In this document: positions 23,871-32,749 of the stretch, one piece after another
Position numbering within the stretch: position 1 is the first letter of the stretch
How the letters are laid out: the number at the start of each line of letters is the position of its first letter
Assembly: GCA_008080815.1 (NCBI GenBank)
Contig: VMDM01000046.1
Coordinates: forward strand, 1 to 33,704
Source: Candidatus Nitrosopumilus sp.
GTDB lineage: Archaea > Thermoproteota > Nitrososphaeria > Nitrososphaerales > Nitrosopumilaceae
Length of the DNA: 33,704 nucleotides
Direction of reading: 5' to 3'
The notes under the pieces: model-generated
Database searches by the model: none
What the model was told of the DNA's origin: nothing
What the model saw: only the letters and a program-made list of their open reading frames with translations
Position numbers and translations under genes: made by a program

Positions 23871-26800
23871 TTAGGCATAATCTGTTAAGAGAGATTGATC
23901 TCCTTGACTTTTTCCAAAAACTAATTCAATTTCATCTGCAAGTGCATAAATTCTACCTCTTTGATATTCACTAACATCATATTTGTCCACCAAACGTTTT
24001 GCCAGTTTTAGATATTTTTCTACTGAACCCCTTGTTATTGTTGGAATTAATTTATGACCACATTGACAAGTTTGAATTAAAGGCATTCTACGATATGAGC
24101 GACCACAAGCAGTGCATCTAAAATTTTGTCTTGCATATGCCCTAAGATTTCCCATTATATCAGGAACCAAGTGAGTCGAAATTACATTTGAAACAATTTC
24201 AGAGGCATTAACTGCATCAATTAATTCAGCGTTTCTTATTTGCATATCAAATTTGTCTAACATTGAACCTAATGTGGAATATGCACTACGTGATTTGGAA
24301 GTTGTCAGGGAACTTGTTGAATGAGTAAAATTATAATCGATGAATTGTCTCATCGTTTCAAGACGTGATTTGATTATCTCTACTGATTGAATATCTGATG
24401 CCTTTATTTGTTGAAGAGTTGACTCAAAAAATTCAATAGGAAAATGTTTTACAACTTCCAAATTATGCGCTTGAGGTTGAGATTCATGAGGAAGTACTAG
24501 CGGTTGTATGAGAAGTGGGGCATCCATTAATCCTCCAATTTTATCAGATAGAAATTGTCGTGAAAAATTTAGTAGTGCATCCATTAGTAACATAATGGAA
24601 TCTGCATCTCCATCTGCATCACGTCGCTTTGCAGAATGCCAATTTGGTGTACCAAAACATACATGAGTATCAGAAAATCCAATGATTCTTGCCACAATCC
24701 CAACAGAAGTATGTGGAGCTAATCCAATTACAAGATGACCAATTAATTCTTGAATTGTTTTTACATTGTAAAATGATGTTTTTTTGTAAAAGTTCTCCAG
24801 TAAGGAATCAACATATTTACAAATTGAAATTAGATATCTTGCACTTTCTGATGGAATTATGACATCTTGCATTCTTAATTCGATTGTTTGTTGTGAGTTT
24901 TCAAGTGGCTTCCCATAAATGTCGGTTGAATATCCTAGTTTTTTTAAGGTCTCAATTGGTGTTCCAATCCACTCAGGTTTGAAATGTGTTAGTGGAGAAT
25001 TTGTTGCATCAAATCTTACTGTGCCGTCCTTAAACACTGTTAAATCATAATTTTGTCTAATCAGTCCCTTTTCGAGAGGTTCAGCAATCTTGTCTTGATT
25101 AATTAGTTCTTTGACACCTTTGAATGGTTCTTGAGCCCTAAATCGTATATTTTCTTGAGCCTGTGCTAGTTTTAATTTGAGTGGAAATTCTTTATGAGAA
25201 TAAGAAACTGCCTTTCTTTTACATCTCTGACAAAATGGTTCATCAAGCGTCTCTCTGCATTTTGAACATCGATAATTAACTATCGTTTTAATTTCACATC
25301 TTTGACATTTAATCCCAATTGAGGGCTGATTACATTGAGGACAAAATCTGTTGTAAATACTAGTAAAGAAATGCTCATTTTTTGAGGCTTTCAACAAGTC
25401 CCTTGTCGGTCCTCCCTTGTCATTAATTGGAAATAGTACGTGTGTTGGAGGTTTCATTTGTCTTGGAGCAGCTTTTTCAGGTCTTCCAATTCTTACTCCA
25501 ATTGATGTTGAAAATTTGTTTTTGATGATTATTCCAGAATTTTTTGTAATTATTTGAGGTACAGACAAGTCATCAAAAATAATTTTTTTCTCAAAAATTA
25601 ATTTCTTGAAAATCTTTGCCTCAATATCAGAAAGAATTATTTGATTTTCAAGAATCTGGTGTGGAACTCCTAATTTCTCAAGAATTCGCTTTTGGTCTAT
25701 TGTGTAAAAAATACAGTCATCACTAATTTTGTTTGGTTTAGTTATTTGTTTGAATTCATCTAAAGTGATTTGATCCCAAAAATATAGAAAATTTGGGTGT
25801 AGTGGCAATTGGAATTTTTCAGATAATATTAACATCTCATCCAAGTTGGGAATTTTTTCTAAAAATGTTTCAAGAAATTCTGAGTCATTTGGAATAGAAT
25901 TAATTTTTAGTTTTAACTCCTCAATCCAAAATTCTTCAACATATCCAGAAGGAACCATTTGTGCATTATTTTCCAAAAAATCCCCAAATGAAATCAGAAT
26001 ATCTCCCAAATGCAATATTTTTTCAATTCTATCTTTGAGTTCTATTCCATGTGAGATATTTTTGATTTTTACAACATCTCCGTTATCTAATCTGACAATG
26101 GGGGTGTCAATAGAATCTACAAATGCAACAGTTGCGCCCTTTCCAGGAATGTCTATCTTGATTTGAGTTCCCACAGCTATGGTATGGTCTAAAATTTCTG
26201 CGATTACTGGGTGAATTCCAACTGAGGCAAATCCTGTGTTGCATGCACGGCCATATCTGAGCCTAAAACCGCCCAATCTATTAGGCATAGATAGGACAGA
26301 TCTTCCCGTGATTACCTCCCTCATTCTTTTTGCTGCAGCATCTTCTTGGTTGTCACCAGTTTGGACCGCTCCTTTAAGATCACCAAGCCATTCCCAACCG
26401 TCTAAATTGTATAGTTCAATTCTTTTGAGTAGTTTTTTTGATCTACCAATCAAACCATCATTTAGAACTCGTAAGGCACCACCTCTAACTCTGTCAGTTT
26501 TGATTCGTTTCATTGATTTGTGATTGACTACTTCGAAGGGGTCTGTATCTACACCATCTAATTCAACAGGAATGTTGGAAATTACATGTTCAATATCTTC
26601 ATCTAAAATATGAAATTGAAAACTGCCTGCTTCTCGTTCATAGATTCTTAATTCCTCAATAAATCTGCCTGTTTCATCATCAAATGAATTTGCTTGATAT
26701 TTTGCAAGACCTACTGCTTTTCTAACATGATCGGCAATTAACATGGTCACAGCTGACTCTGTTCCGCCTGCCGAACGCATTGGACCAGCAATTGAAACAG

Positions 26801-27248
26801 AAAGATAGTCAGTGCCGTCTTTATTTTTTTTAATTTTTACTTCACTAATTCCCTGAAGAGGTGCAATAGTTACTCCTTCTGTAACTATTGCCAAACCAAC
26901 ACGTACTGCCATGTCAAGCTTTTCTTCTAATGTGGAATCTGGTAATGAATAATTTCCTAAGGCAATTTCCTTGGCTAAAATTAGTGCTGATAGTTCTTTT
27001 CCATTTGTTTTTAGTAGTTCTCTGAGAGGTTCAGCAATATCAATTTCGTGCATTTTTGCAACCCTATCAGGAAGATCAAATGCGATTTTCGGCTCAATAA
27101 TTCCTGATGAGTCGTATAAACTAGCCTTTGCAGATGCAGCATGCTCAAATATCGTATAAGTGTCCGTTGATAGTTTTGAGTAGTATCCTAAGTAGAAATC
27201 AGGCATAGGAACACCTTGAATACGGATTAATGCGTCATTTTCAGACAT
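23871..27248 (-). CDS. polC: Family D DNA polymerase, large subunit DP2
   Basis: This 1125-residue catalytic subunit of the archaeal replicative polymerase PolD has the double-psi-barrel fold shared with RNA polymerase. The active-site segment is KRRDADGDADSIMLLMDALL; Asp879 and Asp881 align with the metal-binding Asp pair, and the residue two before them, usually Asn, is Asp877. Cys-rich zinc sites are visible before the core (CPQCNQ through FCQRC) and at the C-terminus (CTACGRSYRRM, then TCQCGHKL). The frame is continuous across the sites where some archaea carry inteins. The start is ATG, 7 bases after the GGGP synthase stop, so the two genes share a transcript. The small subunit is at 31304-32749, across the origin. 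Confidence 0.95.
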   Translation of the reverse strand: MSENDALIRIQGVPMPDFYLGYYSKLSTDTYTIFEHAASAKASLYDSSGIIEPKIAFDLPDRVAKMHEIDIAEPLRELLKTNGKELSALILAKEIALGNYSLPDSTLEEKLDMAVRVGLAIVTEGVTIAPLQGISEVKIKKNKDGTDYLSVSIAGPMRSAGGTESAVTMLIADHVRKAVGLAKYQANSFDDETGRFIEELRIYEREAGSFQFHILDEDIEHVISNIPVELDGVDTDPFEVVNHKSMKRIKTDRVRGGALRVLNDGLIGRSKKLLKRIELYNLDGWEWLGDLKGAVQTGDNQEDAAAKRMREVITGRSVLSMPNRLGGFRLRYGRACNTGFASVGIHPVIAEILDHTIAVGTQIKIDIPGKGATVAFVDSIDTPIVRLDNGDVVKIKNISHGIELKDRIEKILHLGDILISFGDFLENNAQMVPSGYVEEFWIEELKLKINSIPNDSEFLETFLEKIPNLDEMLILSEKFQLPLHPNFLYFWDQITLDEFKQITKPNKISDDCIFYTIDQKRILEKLGVPHQILENQIILSDIEAKIFKKLIFEKKIIFDDLSVPQIITKNSGIIIKNKFSTSIGVRIGRPEKAAPRQMKPPTHVLFPINDKGGPTRDLLKASKNEHFFTSIYNRFCPQCNQPSIGIKCQRCEIKTIVNYRCSKCRETLDEPFCQRCKRKAVSYSHKEFPLKLKLAQAQENIRFRAQEPFKGVKELINQDKIAEPLEKGLIRQNYDLTVFKDGTVRFDATNSPLTHFKPEWIGTPIETLKKLGYSTDIYGKPLENSQQTIELRMQDVIIPSESARYLISICKYVDSLLENFYKKTSFYNVKTIQELIGHLVIGLAPHTSVGIVARIIGFSDTHVCFGTPNWHSAKRRDADGDADSIMLLMDALLNFSRQFLSDKIGGLMDAPLLIQPLVLPHESQPQAHNLEVVKHFPIEFFESTLQQIKASDIQSVEIIKSRLETMRQFIDYNFTHSTSSLTTSKSRSAYSTLGSMLDKFDMQIRNAELIDAVNASEIVSNVISTHLVPDIMGNLRAYARQNFRCTACGRSYRRMPLIQTCQCGHKLIPTITRGSVEKYLKLAKRLVDKYDVSEYQRGRIYALADEIELVFGKSQGDQSLLTDYA

Positions 27249-28070: not shown

Positions 28071-28433
28071 ATGGAAGAGTTTGATAAATCCAATTTTAAC
28101 AATATTTTACGTAAAATTATAAAAAAATCTTTGTTTACAGAGAGACAAATTGAAATTATTTTAAATCAGAAAAGTTTGTTGGAATCAAAATTTTCTATTA
28201 GTAAAGGAGCCTATTATAGACAAGTTTCCCAATCAAGAGAGAAATTAGTTAGTTTTTACTATACAATTGTGCTTTTGCAGGGTTTAGGCGTAATTTTACC
28301 TGATGATATTGATGTGATTTCAAAGGTGTCTGAACAAATTCGTGTGATAAATGAGAGTGATATCTTCCCTGAGAGGGAAGAAGATGTGATTTCTGTGATT
28401 GATAGACTAGTTAGACAGGCATGCTCCATGTGA
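28071..28433 (+). CDS. Small helical protein, possible DNA-binding regulator
   Basis: I do not recognise a named family for this 120-residue protein. It is predicted to be almost entirely helical and has no Cys cluster or membrane segment apart from one Cys near the C-terminus. The stretch LFTERQIEIILNQ, a short turn, then ISKGAYYRQVSQSREKL resembles a helix-turn-helix with a Tyr/Arg-rich recognition helix. A hydrophobic helix (FYYTIVLLQGLGVILP) could serve for dimers. The perfect palindrome over its own promoter fits an autoregulated dimeric DNA-binding protein, but that is inference. The start ATG fits a leaderless transcript. Confidence 0.6.
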   Translation: MEEFDKSNFNNILRKIIKKSLFTERQIEIILNQKSLLESKFSISKGAYYRQVSQSREKLVSFYYTIVLLQGLGVILPDDIDVISKVSEQIRVINESDIFPEREEDVISVIDRLVRQACSM

Positions 28434-28557: not shown

Positions 28558-29157
28558 GTGATGTTAGTAGAAATTCCTGATCCTAGTATCATTCTTAGTG
28601 TGATATTTGCTTTTGTGGTTGGAATTGTAGGATTGTTTGTTTATCAAAGAGTTAGACCATACATCAAACTAAATGAAAAAGCCGATGTTTCACAGTTAGA
28701 GCGTTTAGAATATTATGAAAGACAATTAATTGATATGAAAATTAGGCTAGATGCATTGGAGATACAAGGTATTGAAGAGAAACATGAAGATCCTAATACA
28801 GAATTGAAAGATTTCATAGCAAAATTGGTTGAAAAACAAGAAAAAATTGATGAAGATAATGTCCCATTAGTTCAGAAAGTAGAGCATAGTTTAGAAAATA
28901 ATGATTTACCAACAAACTTTTCAAAAATTGACTACAATAATCCCACTGATTACGTGTTGCATTTAATCACAGACAAAGCTATGACATCACGTGACATTCA
29001 AGTCACATTAAAGAAGAGTAGAGAGCACACTTCAAGATTATTGAAGAAATTATTTGATGATGGATTGGTCCAAAGAAATGAAAATTCAAAACCATATACA
29101 TATTCCATAACAGAAAAAGGAACTGCAAAAATCAATCATCAACCACTAGTTCAATAG
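28558..29157 (+). CDS. Membrane-tethered winged-helix protein
   Basis: The 199-residue protein has one N-terminal membrane helix (about 11-32, IILSVIFAFVVGIVGLFVY), a charged coiled-coil-like region (about 40-110), and a C-terminal winged helix of MarR/ArsR type (about 125-190: DYVLHLITDKAMTSRDIQ, then HTSRLLKKLFDDGLVQRN and a wing ending YSITEKG). The DNA-binding end should lie in the cytoplasm. GTG at 28558 and ATG at 28561 are adjacent possible starts. It follows the 28071 gene on the same strand after 124 bases. A regulator fixed to the membrane could respond to a membrane state or tether a DNA site; its targets are unknown. Confidence 0.75.
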   Translation: MMLVEIPDPSIILSVIFAFVVGIVGLFVYQRVRPYIKLNEKADVSQLERLEYYERQLIDMKIRLDALEIQGIEEKHEDPNTELKDFIAKLVEKQEKIDEDNVPLVQKVEHSLENNDLPTNFSKIDYNNPTDYVLHLITDKAMTSRDIQVTLKKSREHTSRLLKKLFDDGLVQRNENSKPYTYSITEKGTAKINHQPLVQ

Positions 29158-29277: not shown

Positions 29278-29664
29278 TTAGTGGATTTTCTGACCTAGTT
29301 TAATGGATTGGTAAATCCATTCTCTGCCATTTTTTACTCTGTCGACTTTGCCTTTATTTGAAAATCTGGACAAGTATGTAGAGATTATACTTAGTTTTAT
29401 GGGTTCATTGAACTCATCTTCATATTTTTCAAGGATTTCTGTAGAGTTGAATTTGCCCATTGGGTAGTACTTGTCCACTATATGCCATATTTTTGCCCCT
29501 ACTGAATCAATAGAGGTTGTTTCACTTTCTTCTTCAATATTCATTAAATCCATCATTTCGAAAATTTTCAATACTTTTTCTCTGGTAACATTGCCTTCTA
29601 ATTTAATATCATATCTGGCTCCATCTGCATCTTCCATATCTATCCTTATTCGTTTTTTAGGCAT
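29278..29664 (-). CDS. Small winged-helix protein beside the origin
   Basis: The 128-residue protein has an N-terminal beta-type segment (KKRIRIDMEDADGARYDIKL), an acidic linker, and a C-terminal winged helix (about 58-120) with FNSTEILEKYEDEF, the candidate recognition helix KLSIISTYLSRFSNKG and a wing around VKNGREWIYQ. No membrane segment or Cys site is present. I do not recognise a named family. It is transcribed away from the origin-like region and shares that non-coding region with orc1/cdc6. Its position suggests binding to the palindromes there, either for its own control or for origin function. Confidence 0.7.
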   Translation of the reverse strand: MPKKRIRIDMEDADGARYDIKLEGNVTREKVLKIFEMMDLMNIEEESETTSIDSVGAKIWHIVDKYYPMGKFNSTEILEKYEDEFNEPIKLSIISTYLSRFSNKGKVDRVKNGREWIYQSIKLGQKIH

Positions 29665-29812
29665 GGGATCTATCAGATCTTACTTTAACAGTTCAAATGA
29701 TCCGAGAAATTTTGTTAACATAGAGAGTTGTTAATGTTGACTGCCTAGGCCACGCCTGGGGTTTAACATCAAGTTAACAACTCAAACATTATGTTATGAA
29801 AAAAATCAGTTT

Positions 29813-29842
29813 ATTTGACGCCTGGAGTGGAAATAAAGGGGT
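29813..29842 (+). repeat. Origin recognition box, copy 1
   Basis: This 30-base element is identical to the one at 29874-29903. Its core, GGAGTGGAAATAAAGGGGT, matches the archaeal ORB pattern in which a (C/G)AGTGGAAA segment is followed by a run of G. Orc1/Cdc6 winged-helix domains bind such sites in other archaea. Confidence 0.8.
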
Positions 29843-29852
29843 GATTTTCAGG

Positions 29853-29870
29853 TTATTAACATGTTAATAA
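29853..29870. repeat. Perfect 18-base palindrome between the boxes
   Basis: TTATTAACATGTTAATAA reads the same on both strands and sits midway between the two direct boxes, 10 bases from the first and 3 from the second. It contains two of the GTTAA/TTAAC words found throughout the region. Confidence 0.75.
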
Positions 29871-29873
29871 GAA

Positions 29874-29903
29874 ATTTGACGCCTGGAGTGGAAATAAAGG
29901 GGT
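29874..29903 (+). repeat. Origin recognition box, copy 2
   Basis: This is the second copy of the 30-base element, starting exactly 61 bases after the first and on the same strand. Perfect identity over 30 bases in intergenic DNA points to strong selection or recent copying. Confidence 0.8.
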
Positions 29904-29939
29904 CAAATTTGGGTTTATTTGGATAAATTTTAACACCAC

Positions 29940-29956
29940 ATTAACAACTTGTTAAT
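29940..29956. repeat. 17-base interrupted palindrome in the AT-rich segment
   Basis: ATTAACAACTTGTTAAT is a perfect palindrome with one central base. It lies between the second direct box and the inverted box and is built from the same TTAAC/GTTAA words as the 18-base palindrome. Confidence 0.65.
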
Positions 29957-29964
29957 TTTCCCAC

Positions 29965-29984
29965 ACACCAATATTTCCACTCTT
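29965..29984 (-). repeat. Degenerate origin recognition box in inverted orientation
   Basis: On the minus strand this reads AAGAGTGGAAATATTGGTGT. Fifteen of 20 positions match the direct boxes, including the full GAGTGGAAATA core and part of the G run. It faces the two direct copies across a 61-base AT-rich segment. Confidence 0.6.
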
Positions 29985-30124
29985 CTTTCTTTCTAATTTT
30001 TTTTTTTGAGAAAAACTAACTAAAAATAATTAATTACAAACTAAACTAGAATTACTTTAGTATTCTTTAGAATCAAAATACAATTGTAATTAATGATGTT
30101 GATAGGAAATGATGGTGTGTGAGT

Positions 30125-31327
30125 ATGTCCGATCCTATTGATAGATTATTAGATGCAGCAGAACAAGGAAAGTCAATTATTAAAAACCGAGATATTCTTC
30201 ATTTTTCATATATTCCAAATCAAATTCAACATAGAAAATCAGAACAAGAACAAGTTACACAATCACTTTTACCAATTCTAAAACAATCTAGACCTTCTAA
30301 TCTTCTTGTATATGGAAAGCCTGGTACTGGCAAAACTCTAGTTGTAAAAAAGGTAATTTCTAAAATTCAAGAGAGGGTTGAAAAATCTAATTTCCCCATT
30401 AAATTAGTATATTCAAACTCTAAAGAAGAGACCACTCTTTATGGCCTATTAGTAAGCCTAGGGCGTCAGATGGGATTATCAGATAAAGAACTTCCAACAA
30501 CAGGATTGGCAATTAGTGAGATATTCAAAAGACTACTTAACCGTATAATTGAAGATAAAACTAATGCAATTTTTGTAATAGATGAGATAGATTATCTAGC
30601 ACAACTAGTCTCAAAAACAGGCAAAGACATTCTTTACCAATTAACCCGAGCAAATGAGAGATTAGATAGCGGAAGTTTGACGTTGGTAGGAATCTCAAAT
30701 GACCTGACCTTTAAAGAGAAACTAGACCCTCGTGTAATTAGTAGCCTAGGAGAGGAAGAAATTGTATTTCCCAACTATGATGTAGAACAAATTAAAAAAA
30801 TCATTGAAGAACGAATCAAAGAGGCATTTATTGAGAATTCTGTAGATGAACCCGCTGTCAATCTGTGTGCAGCTATGGCTGGAGGAGAACATGGGGATGC
30901 AAGAAGAGCTATTGATTTAATCCGTGTGGCAGGTGAGATTGCAGAAAGAAATCAGGCTGATAAAGTTACATCTGACCATGTCAGAGAAGCATCTCAGAAA
31001 ATAGAGGAAAATAAAGAGGAAACATCTCTAAAATCATTCCCATTACATGAAAAATTGGTCTTAATTGCTATAATGAAGGCAAACGGCTCATCTACAGGTG
31101 AGATTTACGCATCATACAAAGCACTATGCAAATCAGTTGGTAGAGATGAACTAACTCAGAGAAGAATCACACAAATGCTCAGTGAAATAGAGTTATCAGG
31201 AATTATTTCAGGAAGATTAGTCCATCAGGGAACTCATGGAAGAACAAAAAAATACAAACTAACAATTTCTTCAGACTTGATTAAAAAAACATTCAAAGAT
31301 GATTTAACTTTGCAAGATATTATCTGA
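30125..31327 (+). CDS. cdc6: Orc1/Cdc6 replication initiator
   Basis: This AAA+ initiator binds origin boxes and helps load the MCM helicase. Walker A is GKPGTGKT (64-71) and Walker B is FVIDEIDYL (about 150-158). Sensor segments LVGISNDL and GEHGDARRAIDLIR follow. A C-terminal winged helix (about 300-395) has ITQMLSEIELSGIISGR and a basic wing HGRTKKYKL. The frame is open from a GTG at 30119, but GGTG at 30114-30117 lies 7 bases before the ATG used here. It starts about 140 bases from the inverted origin box, as is usual for an origin-linked initiator. It is the only orc1/cdc6 gene in the window. It overlaps the convergent PolD small-subunit gene by 24 bases. Confidence 0.95.
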   Translation: MSDPIDRLLDAAEQGKSIIKNRDILHFSYIPNQIQHRKSEQEQVTQSLLPILKQSRPSNLLVYGKPGTGKTLVVKKVISKIQERVEKSNFPIKLVYSNSKEETTLYGLLVSLGRQMGLSDKELPTTGLAISEIFKRLLNRIIEDKTNAIFVIDEIDYLAQLVSKTGKDILYQLTRANERLDSGSLTLVGISNDLTFKEKLDPRVISSLGEEEIVFPNYDVEQIKKIIEERIKEAFIENSVDEPAVNLCAAMAGGEHGDARRAIDLIRVAGEIAERNQADKVTSDHVREASQKIEENKEETSLKSFPLHEKLVLIAIMKANGSSTGEIYASYKALCKSVGRDELTQRRITQMLSEIELSGIISGRLVHQGTHGRTKKYKLTISSDLIKKTFKDDLTLQDII

Positions 31328-32749
31328 ATTTGAATTATAATTTTCATGAAAGACTTGAAAGGTCTTTAGATTAACCAACAAAGCAATTCCTGGATTTGGA
31401 GTCATTCCAACACTTGCTTGAAATGGAGTTTGTTTTTGCCAGGAACCTGAATTAACCAACAAGATTCCACGATACATATCTAGTTGCGCCTTGTGAACAT
31501 GACCTACATGAAAAATATCGGGAATCTCATCAATTACCATCAAGTCATGCATCTCAGGTGCAATTGGGGTCTGACTACCATAAACTGGACTAAGATGTCT
31601 GGCCTTTAGTAGATGTTTCATTACGTCAGTTGGTTTGTCATAACTAAGTCCTGGTGTAGTTTTTACAATATCATCTATACTCTGACCATGAAACATTAGC
31701 ACTTTTACTCCATTTAGAGAAACCAAAGATGGATTACCAACCATAATGACATTTTCTTTTTCCCAAATACTGGAATTGTATTTTTTTGGAATTGCAGGTT
31801 GAGGAAGAGCTCTTCTTCCAGGATCGTGATTTCCAGGCATTATGATAATTTTGACATTTTTAGGTATTTTTGCAATCAATTTCTCTACTTTACTTAATTG
31901 CTCTTCTATGGTCTGGCAGACTAACTCTTTGTCTTGATTTGGATAAATCCCTACACCATCAACCAAGTCACCTGCAATCAAGACAAATCTGATTTTTTTA
32001 GCTACAGGATCAGAACTTGAAATCCATTCAAAAAATTCCGATAACTCTTTTTCCATGAAATATTTACTTCCAATATGCAAATCTGAAAGAAAAACAGCAT
32101 ATACTTCAGATTCTGACTTGTTTGTAGCCTGATCAGGGACATCAGGCATGATCAAATCTTTAATCATAAAACCTGAATTCTTACCCATAACAACTTTGGC
32201 CATCACAAATTGGTCAATTAACAGGGTTTCTGCAACCTTTTTTAATTCCTCATCAAAAATAATGCCCTCTAGAACTCCCGAAGGGTCCTCCAATACAACT
32301 TTGGCAATATTTCTTTCAGAAGATTTGGATGTTACCAAACCACAAACATAGACATCATCATCAGATTTGGCAGTCTTTACCACAGATAATGACTTGAGGA
32401 ATCGTGATTCTGGTCTTTCTGATATGATGTGTTTTAATTTGTTGAAACGACTAGAAAATAATGCATTATACCCCTTTACTCCTTCACCGGTTGTAATTTT
32501 TCCAGTGGGATCTGAGAGAACTTTGACTTCATTTTGAAGCGAATCATCATCTTTGATTCCCAAATAACTCTCTACATCATCCTGATTAATTTGAAATAAT
32601 TTTTGTCTGGTTTTTTCTCTAACAATTTCTTTGATAATTTTTTCTAATTTTTTTACATCAATTCCTTCAAGAATTTTATAGGCATTTGGATGAATTTGAA
32701 ATCCTTTGTTTAGTGCATAATTTAAAACAAAATAGACTTCCTTATTCAT
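31304..32749 (-). CDS. polB: Family D DNA polymerase, small subunit DP1
   Basis: This 481-residue subunit has an N-terminal helical region, an OB fold (about 160-215), and a calcineurin-type phosphoesterase domain. The metal motifs are all intact: SDLHIG (Asp223, His225), AGDLVDG, PGNHDPGRR, FHGQS and GHVHKAQ. The intact site predicts the 3'-5' proofreading nuclease known for archaeal DP1. It works with DP2 (23871-27248). The ATG has a palindromic TTTAATTAAA box centred 25 bases upstream, also positioned for the divergent SpoIIM-like gene. Its 3' end overlaps cdc6 by 24 bases on the opposite strand. Confidence 0.95.
   Translation of the reverse strand: MNKEVYFVLNYALNKGFQIHPNAYKILEGIDVKKLEKIIKEIVREKTRQKLFQINQDDVESYLGIKDDDSLQNEVKVLSDPTGKITTGEGVKGYNALFSSRFNKLKHIISERPESRFLKSLSVVKTAKSDDDVYVCGLVTSKSSERNIAKVVLEDPSGVLEGIIFDEELKKVAETLLIDQFVMAKVVMGKNSGFMIKDLIMPDVPDQATNKSESEVYAVFLSDLHIGSKYFMEKELSEFFEWISSSDPVAKKIRFVLIAGDLVDGVGIYPNQDKELVCQTIEEQLSKVEKLIAKIPKNVKIIIMPGNHDPGRRALPQPAIPKKYNSSIWEKENVIMVGNPSLVSLNGVKVLMFHGQSIDDIVKTTPGLSYDKPTDVMKHLLKARHLSPVYGSQTPIAPEMHDLMVIDEIPDIFHVGHVHKAQLDMYRGILLVNSGSWQKQTPFQASVGMTPNPGIALLVNLKTFQVFHENYNSNSDNILQS

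Follow-up and report, generated by a model that had tools for sequence, protein, structure and literature searches.

A second repeat class and a candidate binding factor at the probable replication origin of a Nitrosopumilus species

In Sulfolobus, the 130-bp origin oriC1 has the order ORB3-DUE-ORB2 and belongs with the initiator Orc1-1 (PMC12141716). A protein that is not an initiator, UBP, has a motif of its own, ucm, within the origin in Sulfolobales, and ubp is described as having been acquired relatively recently in Desulfurococcales and Sulfolobales (PMC12141716). Among regulators, the BlaI/MecI/CopY group binds ACA-type half-sites, and the CopY operator is RNYKACANNTGTMRNY (PMC7253601). 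Closer to the organism studied here, Nitrosopumilus maritimus has a chromosome of 1645 kb (PMC5333045) with one origin, located in vivo by marker-frequency analysis (Pelve et al. 2013, PMID 23991938, as cited in PMC4010727, PMC5333045 and PMC4588119), and Ori-Finder 2 also predicts a single origin (PMC4164010). The locus described below is therefore, as an origin, of an already known kind; what is added here is a second class of repeats and a candidate winged-helix (wHTH) factor. The excerpts of the literature on the N. maritimus origin describe neither the fourth ORB, nor the TT(A/C)ACA boxes, nor the wHTH neighbour, though the fourth ORB or the boxes may have been mentioned before; nor do the excerpts describe an accessory origin protein for this group.

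The window, that is, the whole stretch of DNA analysed, comprises 33,704 nucleotides from a Candidatus Nitrosopumilus sp., whose draft assembly consists of 52 contigs and is 87% complete. Its origin region and the flanking genes contain the following features:

23871-27248, gene for the large subunit of PolD (DP2)
29278-29664, minus strand, gene for a 128-amino acid wHTH protein (BlaI/MecI/CopY-like), divergent from orc1; candidate box binder
29685-29734, TT(A/C)ACA group 1, with boxes at 29685 (+), 29713 (-), 29715 (+) and 29729 (-); largely invariant in 77 aligned sequences
29735-29758, strongly conserved block TTGACTGCCTAG..CCACGCCT, which separates two box groups and hardly varies within the genus
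29763-29779, plus strand, TT(A/C)ACA group 2, with boxes at 29763 and 29774, 11 bp apart; the one at 29774 is conserved
29813-29842, plus strand, ORB1, a 30-bp repeat with a 20-bp core at 29823-29842
29856-29867, palindromic pair TTAACA-TGTTAA between ORB1 and ORB2; genus consensus TTCACATGTTAA
29874-29903, plus strand, ORB2, identical to ORB1 and 61 bp further on; core at 29884-29903
29930-29955, TT(A/C)ACA group 3, with boxes at 29930 (+), 29941 (+) and 29950 (-), or +46, +57 and +66 from ORB2
29965-29984, minus strand, ORB3, inverted; its core CCCACACACCAATATTTCCACTC is almost invariant in the 77 aligned sequences
29985-30098, AT-rich putative unwinding element of about 114 bp (approximately 83% AT) between ORB3 and ORB4
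30099-30121, plus strand, ORB4, GGAAATGATGGTGTGTG, which overlaps the orc1 leader and is identical to ORB3 at 17 of 21 positions
30119-31327, plus strand, orc1/cdc6 initiator gene (TIGR02928, 372.9 bits; cut-off 181.3)
31304-32749, gene for the small subunit of PolD (DP1)

The region 29665-30124 is very probably the chromosomal replication origin (oriC) of this Nitrosopumilus species, with its ORBs. Several ORB repeats lie in an intergenic region that adjoins orc1/cdc6, and an inverted pair, ORB3(-) and ORB4(+), stands on either side of the element of approximately 83% AT. A search of the whole draft (1,066,930 bases) with a 19-base ORB core, allowing up to 3 mismatches, gave the two exact copies and no other match; the reversed control pattern gave none in the same 1.07 Mb. 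The element is thus unique in the draft, which represents 87% of the genome, and is kept together with its neighbours in relatives. An earlier note, made from the DNA alone, had called the span a probable origin, and the retention of ORBs beside orc1 in almost all relatives open to this check supports this. Its two identical 30-base boxes (29813-29842 and 29874-29903, starts 61 bases apart) are exact, its third, inverted box at 29965-29984 does match at 15 of 20 positions, and the place it gave them, beside orc1/cdc6 and between the two PolD genes, is correct. All three boxes are real, but the anatomy they made up was incomplete, as the fourth ORB at 30099-30121 and 11 hexamer boxes had been overlooked. 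The translation of orc1 probably starts at a conserved ATG at 30125, and the AT-rich element presumably also contains the orc1 promoter.

We examined strand asymmetry in a Nitrosopumilus relative with a complete chromosome (G022), using 60 stretches of 8 kb (29% of the chromosome). In this sample, the skew contrast at the axis of the locus is in the top 1.2% of rotations for keto skew and in the top 0.6% for TA skew, and the best keto/TA axis lies at 460 kb, 38 kb from the locus at 498 kb. GC skew at the origin axis is not significant in the same 29% sample, which is consistent with the statement that N. limnia has no obvious origin from GC skew (PMC3043068). Of the skews expected to turn at the site, keto and TA do so close to it in this sample, and GC does not. 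The same arrangement is seen in genome G085, a single contig of 1,645,259 bp that begins about 140 bases before orc1 and has all four ORBs and 11 boxes. This is also the length of the N. maritimus SCM1 chromosome. The N. maritimus origin resembles the present one in genus and, going by this chromosome of matching length, in gene neighbours, the four ORBs and the box array; PMC5797428 is cited for a Ca. Nitrosopumilus species in comparison with N. maritimus.

How is this region conserved? We took 80 orc1 loci with 3-kb flanks from GTDB genomes, nearly all of Nitrosopumilus or Nitrosarchaeum. The 128-amino acid wHTH gene is divergent from orc1 in all 78 loci that hold both genes, with the origin between the two in a gap of mostly 455-490 bp. 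Among 77 aligned sequences, the window included, near-invariant islands stand out from variable DNA: the direct ORBs, the inverted ORB, the AT-rich stretch, GGAAACAAAGGTGTGTGAG directly upstream of orc1, and several TTAACA/TGTTAA hexamers. At the level of single bases, then, the boxes of the earlier note are conserved where the gene neighbours are the same. A slightly degenerate ORB pattern has matches in 43 of 61 relatives, usually two at 60-62 bp. The block at 29735-29758 has a CACGCCT like the 5' flank of ORB1 and ORB2; it could represent either the degenerate half of an additional ORB or a site in its own right. The genus, together with much of the family to which it belongs, has CCTGGAGTGG in place of the canonical CTCCAGTGG in the 5' half of the ORB; this change removes the TCCA/TGGA dyad and leaves the GGAAA...GGGGT half intact.

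Across 38 origins of the class, the order ORB1(+), ORB2(+), ORB3(-), AT-rich element, ORB4(+), orc1 recurs. The regular phasing that had been read from the window is conserved for ORB1 and ORB2, which in the 28 origins with a recognised pair are 59-64 bp apart and in most cases 61-62, but the 61 bases between the second box and the inverted one do not generalise, as the ORB2-to-ORB3 start distance is 64-99 bp in most other origins. Equivalents of ORB4 lie 20-95 bp upstream of orc1 in most other families, and ORB3 and ORB4 of one genome often have a common tail unlike that of ORB1/2 (e.g., G070, G072, G071). We considered that ORB4 might be a mere ribosome-binding site with start codon and rejected this, because other families place the equivalent approximately 60 bp from orc1. 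In one genome (G039; L176, 700-1890), an insertion of about 1.2 kb lies between ORB1/2 and ORB3/4, so that the two halves can be separated; in another (G070), and apparently in a third (G048), the wHTH gene, boxes and ORB1/2 are inverted as one block. These rearrangements indicate that the origin is made of two parts: a core, ORB3-DUE-ORB4, that adjoins orc1, and an arm that carries ORB1/2. In family f2 (G053, G103, G120), approximately 2.9 kb separate the wHTH gene from orc1.

The second class of repeats consists of short TT(A/C)ACA boxes. In the origin of the window, a stretch of 271 bp (29685-29955) contains 11 TTAACA/TGTTAA hexamers, interleaved with ORB1-3, where about one (1.0) is expected. 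Background in G022 averages 0.2 hexamers per 300 bp and never exceeds 4 in any 300-bp stretch (480 kb). Every origin of the genus that we examined has 7-13 of them. An initial impression that TTAACA is limited to a few families was rejected, for in several families without it the origin is enriched for TTCACA/TGTGAA. By first-order Markov resampling, one or the other motif is enriched in 35 of the 38 origins of the class, and boxes are enriched in 19 of 20 origins outside it. In two of the three exceptions within the class (G048, G070), the boxes lie beyond the wHTH gene, with the inverted arm. Genome G044 has the wHTH gene and no significant boxes. The control hexamers TTGACA and TTTACA are not enriched at origins in the same resampling. 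The single signal for TTTACA came from the region upstream of a wHTH gene that lies apart from orc1. This enrichment was noticed first and tested later, and the tests on families f28, f33, f46 and f37 given below were designed afterwards.

The positions of the boxes appear to recur as well: the same raw offsets to ORB2 are seen in different families (+46, +56, +67, -21, -29, -110 and -118), in steps of about ten bases. The group 3 boxes of the window are about one helical turn apart, and similar offsets are found in other families. Outside the class, origins with a divergent wHTH gene are mostly of the form ORB(+), ORB(-), ORB(+), with boxes at recurring offsets.

The divergent neighbour of orc1 belongs to a protein family that we defined by one alignment (A1). 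Of 99 high-quality genomes of the class, 98 encode one copy of it, and the family also occurs in other classes of the phylum. Its gene adjoins orc1 in all 95 genomes where this can be assessed. In the set of 99, the two genes are divergent within 4 kb in 83; in 10 more the chromosome begins at orc1 and they adjoin across its ends; in 2 they are in tandem (one across contig ends) and in 3 on different contigs; in 1 the wHTH gene was not found. Profile matches are below the cut-offs, with 19.0 bits against PF03965 (Penicillinase_R; cut-off 22.6) and 21.8 bits against TIGR02698 (CopY; cut-off 121.95). The AlphaFold model (mean pLDDT 73.5) has as its best PDB match MecI bound to DNA (1sax; E-value 7e-3, TM-score 0.43-0.45); Foldseek gave no PDB match below an E-value of 1e-3, and a sequence search of solved structures gave weak matches only. 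Taken with the fold, these weak profile matches suggest that the protein is a relative of BlaI/MecI/CopY. It resembles that group (PF03965) in its modelled wHTH and in the ACA/TGT half-site of the boxes that it is predicted to bind, but differs in an extra N-terminal strand pair and helix and in its sub-cut-off Pfam score. Furthermore, BlaI/MecI/CopY proteins have one operator, in contrast to the multi-site array at the origin here, and the operator type of the group is KACANNTGTM, compared with TTMACA/TGTKAA for the boxes.

Beyond the wHTH gene, away from the origin, lie two other genes. The convergent neighbour (28558-29157) encodes a protein with a hydrophobic stretch at the N-terminus, a charged central part and an HTH_27/Lrs14-like wHTH at the C-terminus; from these features, a membrane-anchored DNA-binding protein near the origin is possible. 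Between it and a gene for a GGGP-synthase-like protein (PcrB) lies a 120-amino acid ORF (28071-28433) with no significant family match.

Families in which the wHTH gene lies apart from orc1 are informative about what the boxes go with. In three of them (f28, f33, f46), the origin at orc1 keeps its boxes along with its ORBs, by the resampling test in four genomes (G162, G185, G215, G155) and by count in six more (G180, G195, G190, G148, G225, G230). Upstream of the separated wHTH gene, no boxes above background were found in the same four genomes. Origins that have ORBs in genomes with no wHTH match contain only 0-3 boxes per 900 bases (six genomes of f37, G157 of f34 and G171 of f38, the last a stretch of 288 bases only). 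Because the boxes stay at the origin even when the wHTH gene lies elsewhere, and do not exceed background in origins with ORBs but no wHTH, they behave as origin elements that depend on a trans-acting factor, one that occurs together with the wHTH. The association is phylogenetically structured. The valid controls with ORBs and no wHTH come from families f37 and f34 and the short f38 stretch, and since this set covers few families, common ancestry could account for part of the association. Families f25, f43, f44, f49 and f51 were set aside as counter-examples because they have no convincing ORBs upstream of orc1; they are uninformative, as are several further families that have neither the wHTH nor ORBs at orc1. 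Two of the five, f25 and f49, have the wHTH and neither ORBs nor boxes at orc1. In their genomes G145, G204, G166, G159, G219, G234 and G239, the wHTH and Orc1 genes are unlinked and there are no ORBs upstream of orc1; the origin may be elsewhere or may use another motif. In G204, TTTACA is enriched upstream of the wHTH gene (5 versus 1.1).

From this co-occurrence and the likeness to BlaI/MecI/CopY, we lean slightly towards the prediction that the wHTH protein binds the TT(A/C)ACA boxes. It is conceivable, though unlikely, that the boxes are ordinary operators through which a BlaI-like protein represses its own promoter and that of orc1, the intergenic space being a regulatory region common to both genes that contains the ORBs as well. 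The two genes are indeed divergent, the wHTH start has a box 21 bp upstream, and the related BlaI/MecI/CopY proteins act as repressors at TACA-type half-sites (PMC7253601). However, in f28, f33 and f46 it is the ORBs that the boxes accompany, and the separated wHTH gene has only background upstream of it. Seen from orc1, every box of the window is located past the AT-rich element and ORB3, at 160-435 bp upstream, and box positions recur at set offsets from ORB2. The same offsets, and the interleaving with ORBs, argue against an origin-proximal centromere bound by a ParB/AspA/TubR-like wHTH. Short, helically spaced repeats near an origin together with a small wHTH protein would suit such a role, and the weak Foldseek matches include AspA (5k5q) and TubR (3m8e, 6aht); yet BlaI/MecI is the better match, inspection of the window ORFs revealed no recognisable partition ATPase, and we hold this reading to be distinctly improbable.

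Archaeal origins can carry sites for several initiators, and the boxes might accordingly be secondary sites of Orc1 or of a second Orc1 paralogue. This too is hardly likely: single-contig genomes with one detectable Orc1 (G006, G007, G013, G022) belong to the genus in which each examined origin has 7-13 boxes, and genomes with Orc1 and ORBs but without the wHTH have no box arrays. Each of these three readings of the boxes, repression, centromere and further Orc1 sites, is less well supported than that of an accessory factor. A broader doubt concerns the locus itself, whose ORB cluster might serve only to autoregulate orc1 while replication starts elsewhere. ORB4 does overlap the orc1 leader, and origin function in this organism is deduced from sequence. 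Against this stand the complete origin anatomy, the single N. maritimus origin mapped by marker frequency (cited in PMC4010727) and the keto/TA skew axis close to the locus in G022, and we consider an autoregulatory element alone extremely improbable.

With the accessory-factor reading, the following scheme can be proposed. Orc1/Cdc6 from the adjoining gene would bind the four ORBs. ORB3 and ORB4 face outward from the AT-rich element of about 114 bp, and Orc1 bound there would, by analogy with Sulfolobus oriC1 (PMC12141716), recruit MCM to this element and give bidirectional replication. A second nucleoprotein arm would be formed by ORB1 and ORB2 and by the TT(A/C)ACA boxes among them, whose spacing is close to helical turns. 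The wHTH protein would bind the boxes in trans as an accessory origin factor, wrapping or spacing the DNA, and might thereby shape or regulate the Orc1 complex so that initiation is promoted or limited.

As in Sulfolobus oriC1, two ORBs of opposite orientation flank an AT-rich element next to orc1; unlike oriC1, the locus has an extra direct ORB pair beyond the core, interleaved with TT(A/C)ACA boxes, and ucm was not found. A ucm-like motif in the AT-rich element had been considered, with TACAAACT shared with the window by eye, and was rejected: across 26 such elements, motifs like ucm (TTATACAAACTC-like) are no better than shuffles. Family f37 of the phylum, with ucm in its AT-rich element, has the same minus-DUE-plus order as the core, and TATACAAAC occurs in 4 of its 5 genomes scanned. 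The likeness to UBP and ucm of the Sulfolobales (PMC12141716) is that of a predicted DNA-binding protein, other than the initiator, with its own motif within the origin. The motif, its position (outside the DUE), its copy number and the predicted protein (a BlaI-like wHTH) all differ. The wHTH and boxes would be an analogue of UBP and ucm at most, and no homologue.

Only one mapped origin is apparent in this abundant marine group. It seems to us evenly balanced whether the ammonia-oxidising class and neighbouring classes share an ancient second origin module, a box array at recurring positions relative to the ORBs that is bound in trans by a dedicated single-copy wHTH protein that has co-evolved with its motif. 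With one particular protein, one particular motif and a contrast across the phylogeny to work with, this can be tested using purified protein and short DNAs, which avoids genetics in an organism that grows slowly. If the module is real, the wHTH protein would be a previously unrecognised origin-binding factor, a functional counterpart of Sulfolobus UBP or of bacterial IHF/Fis, and its motif, TTAACA in some families and TTCACA in others, would have co-evolved with it.
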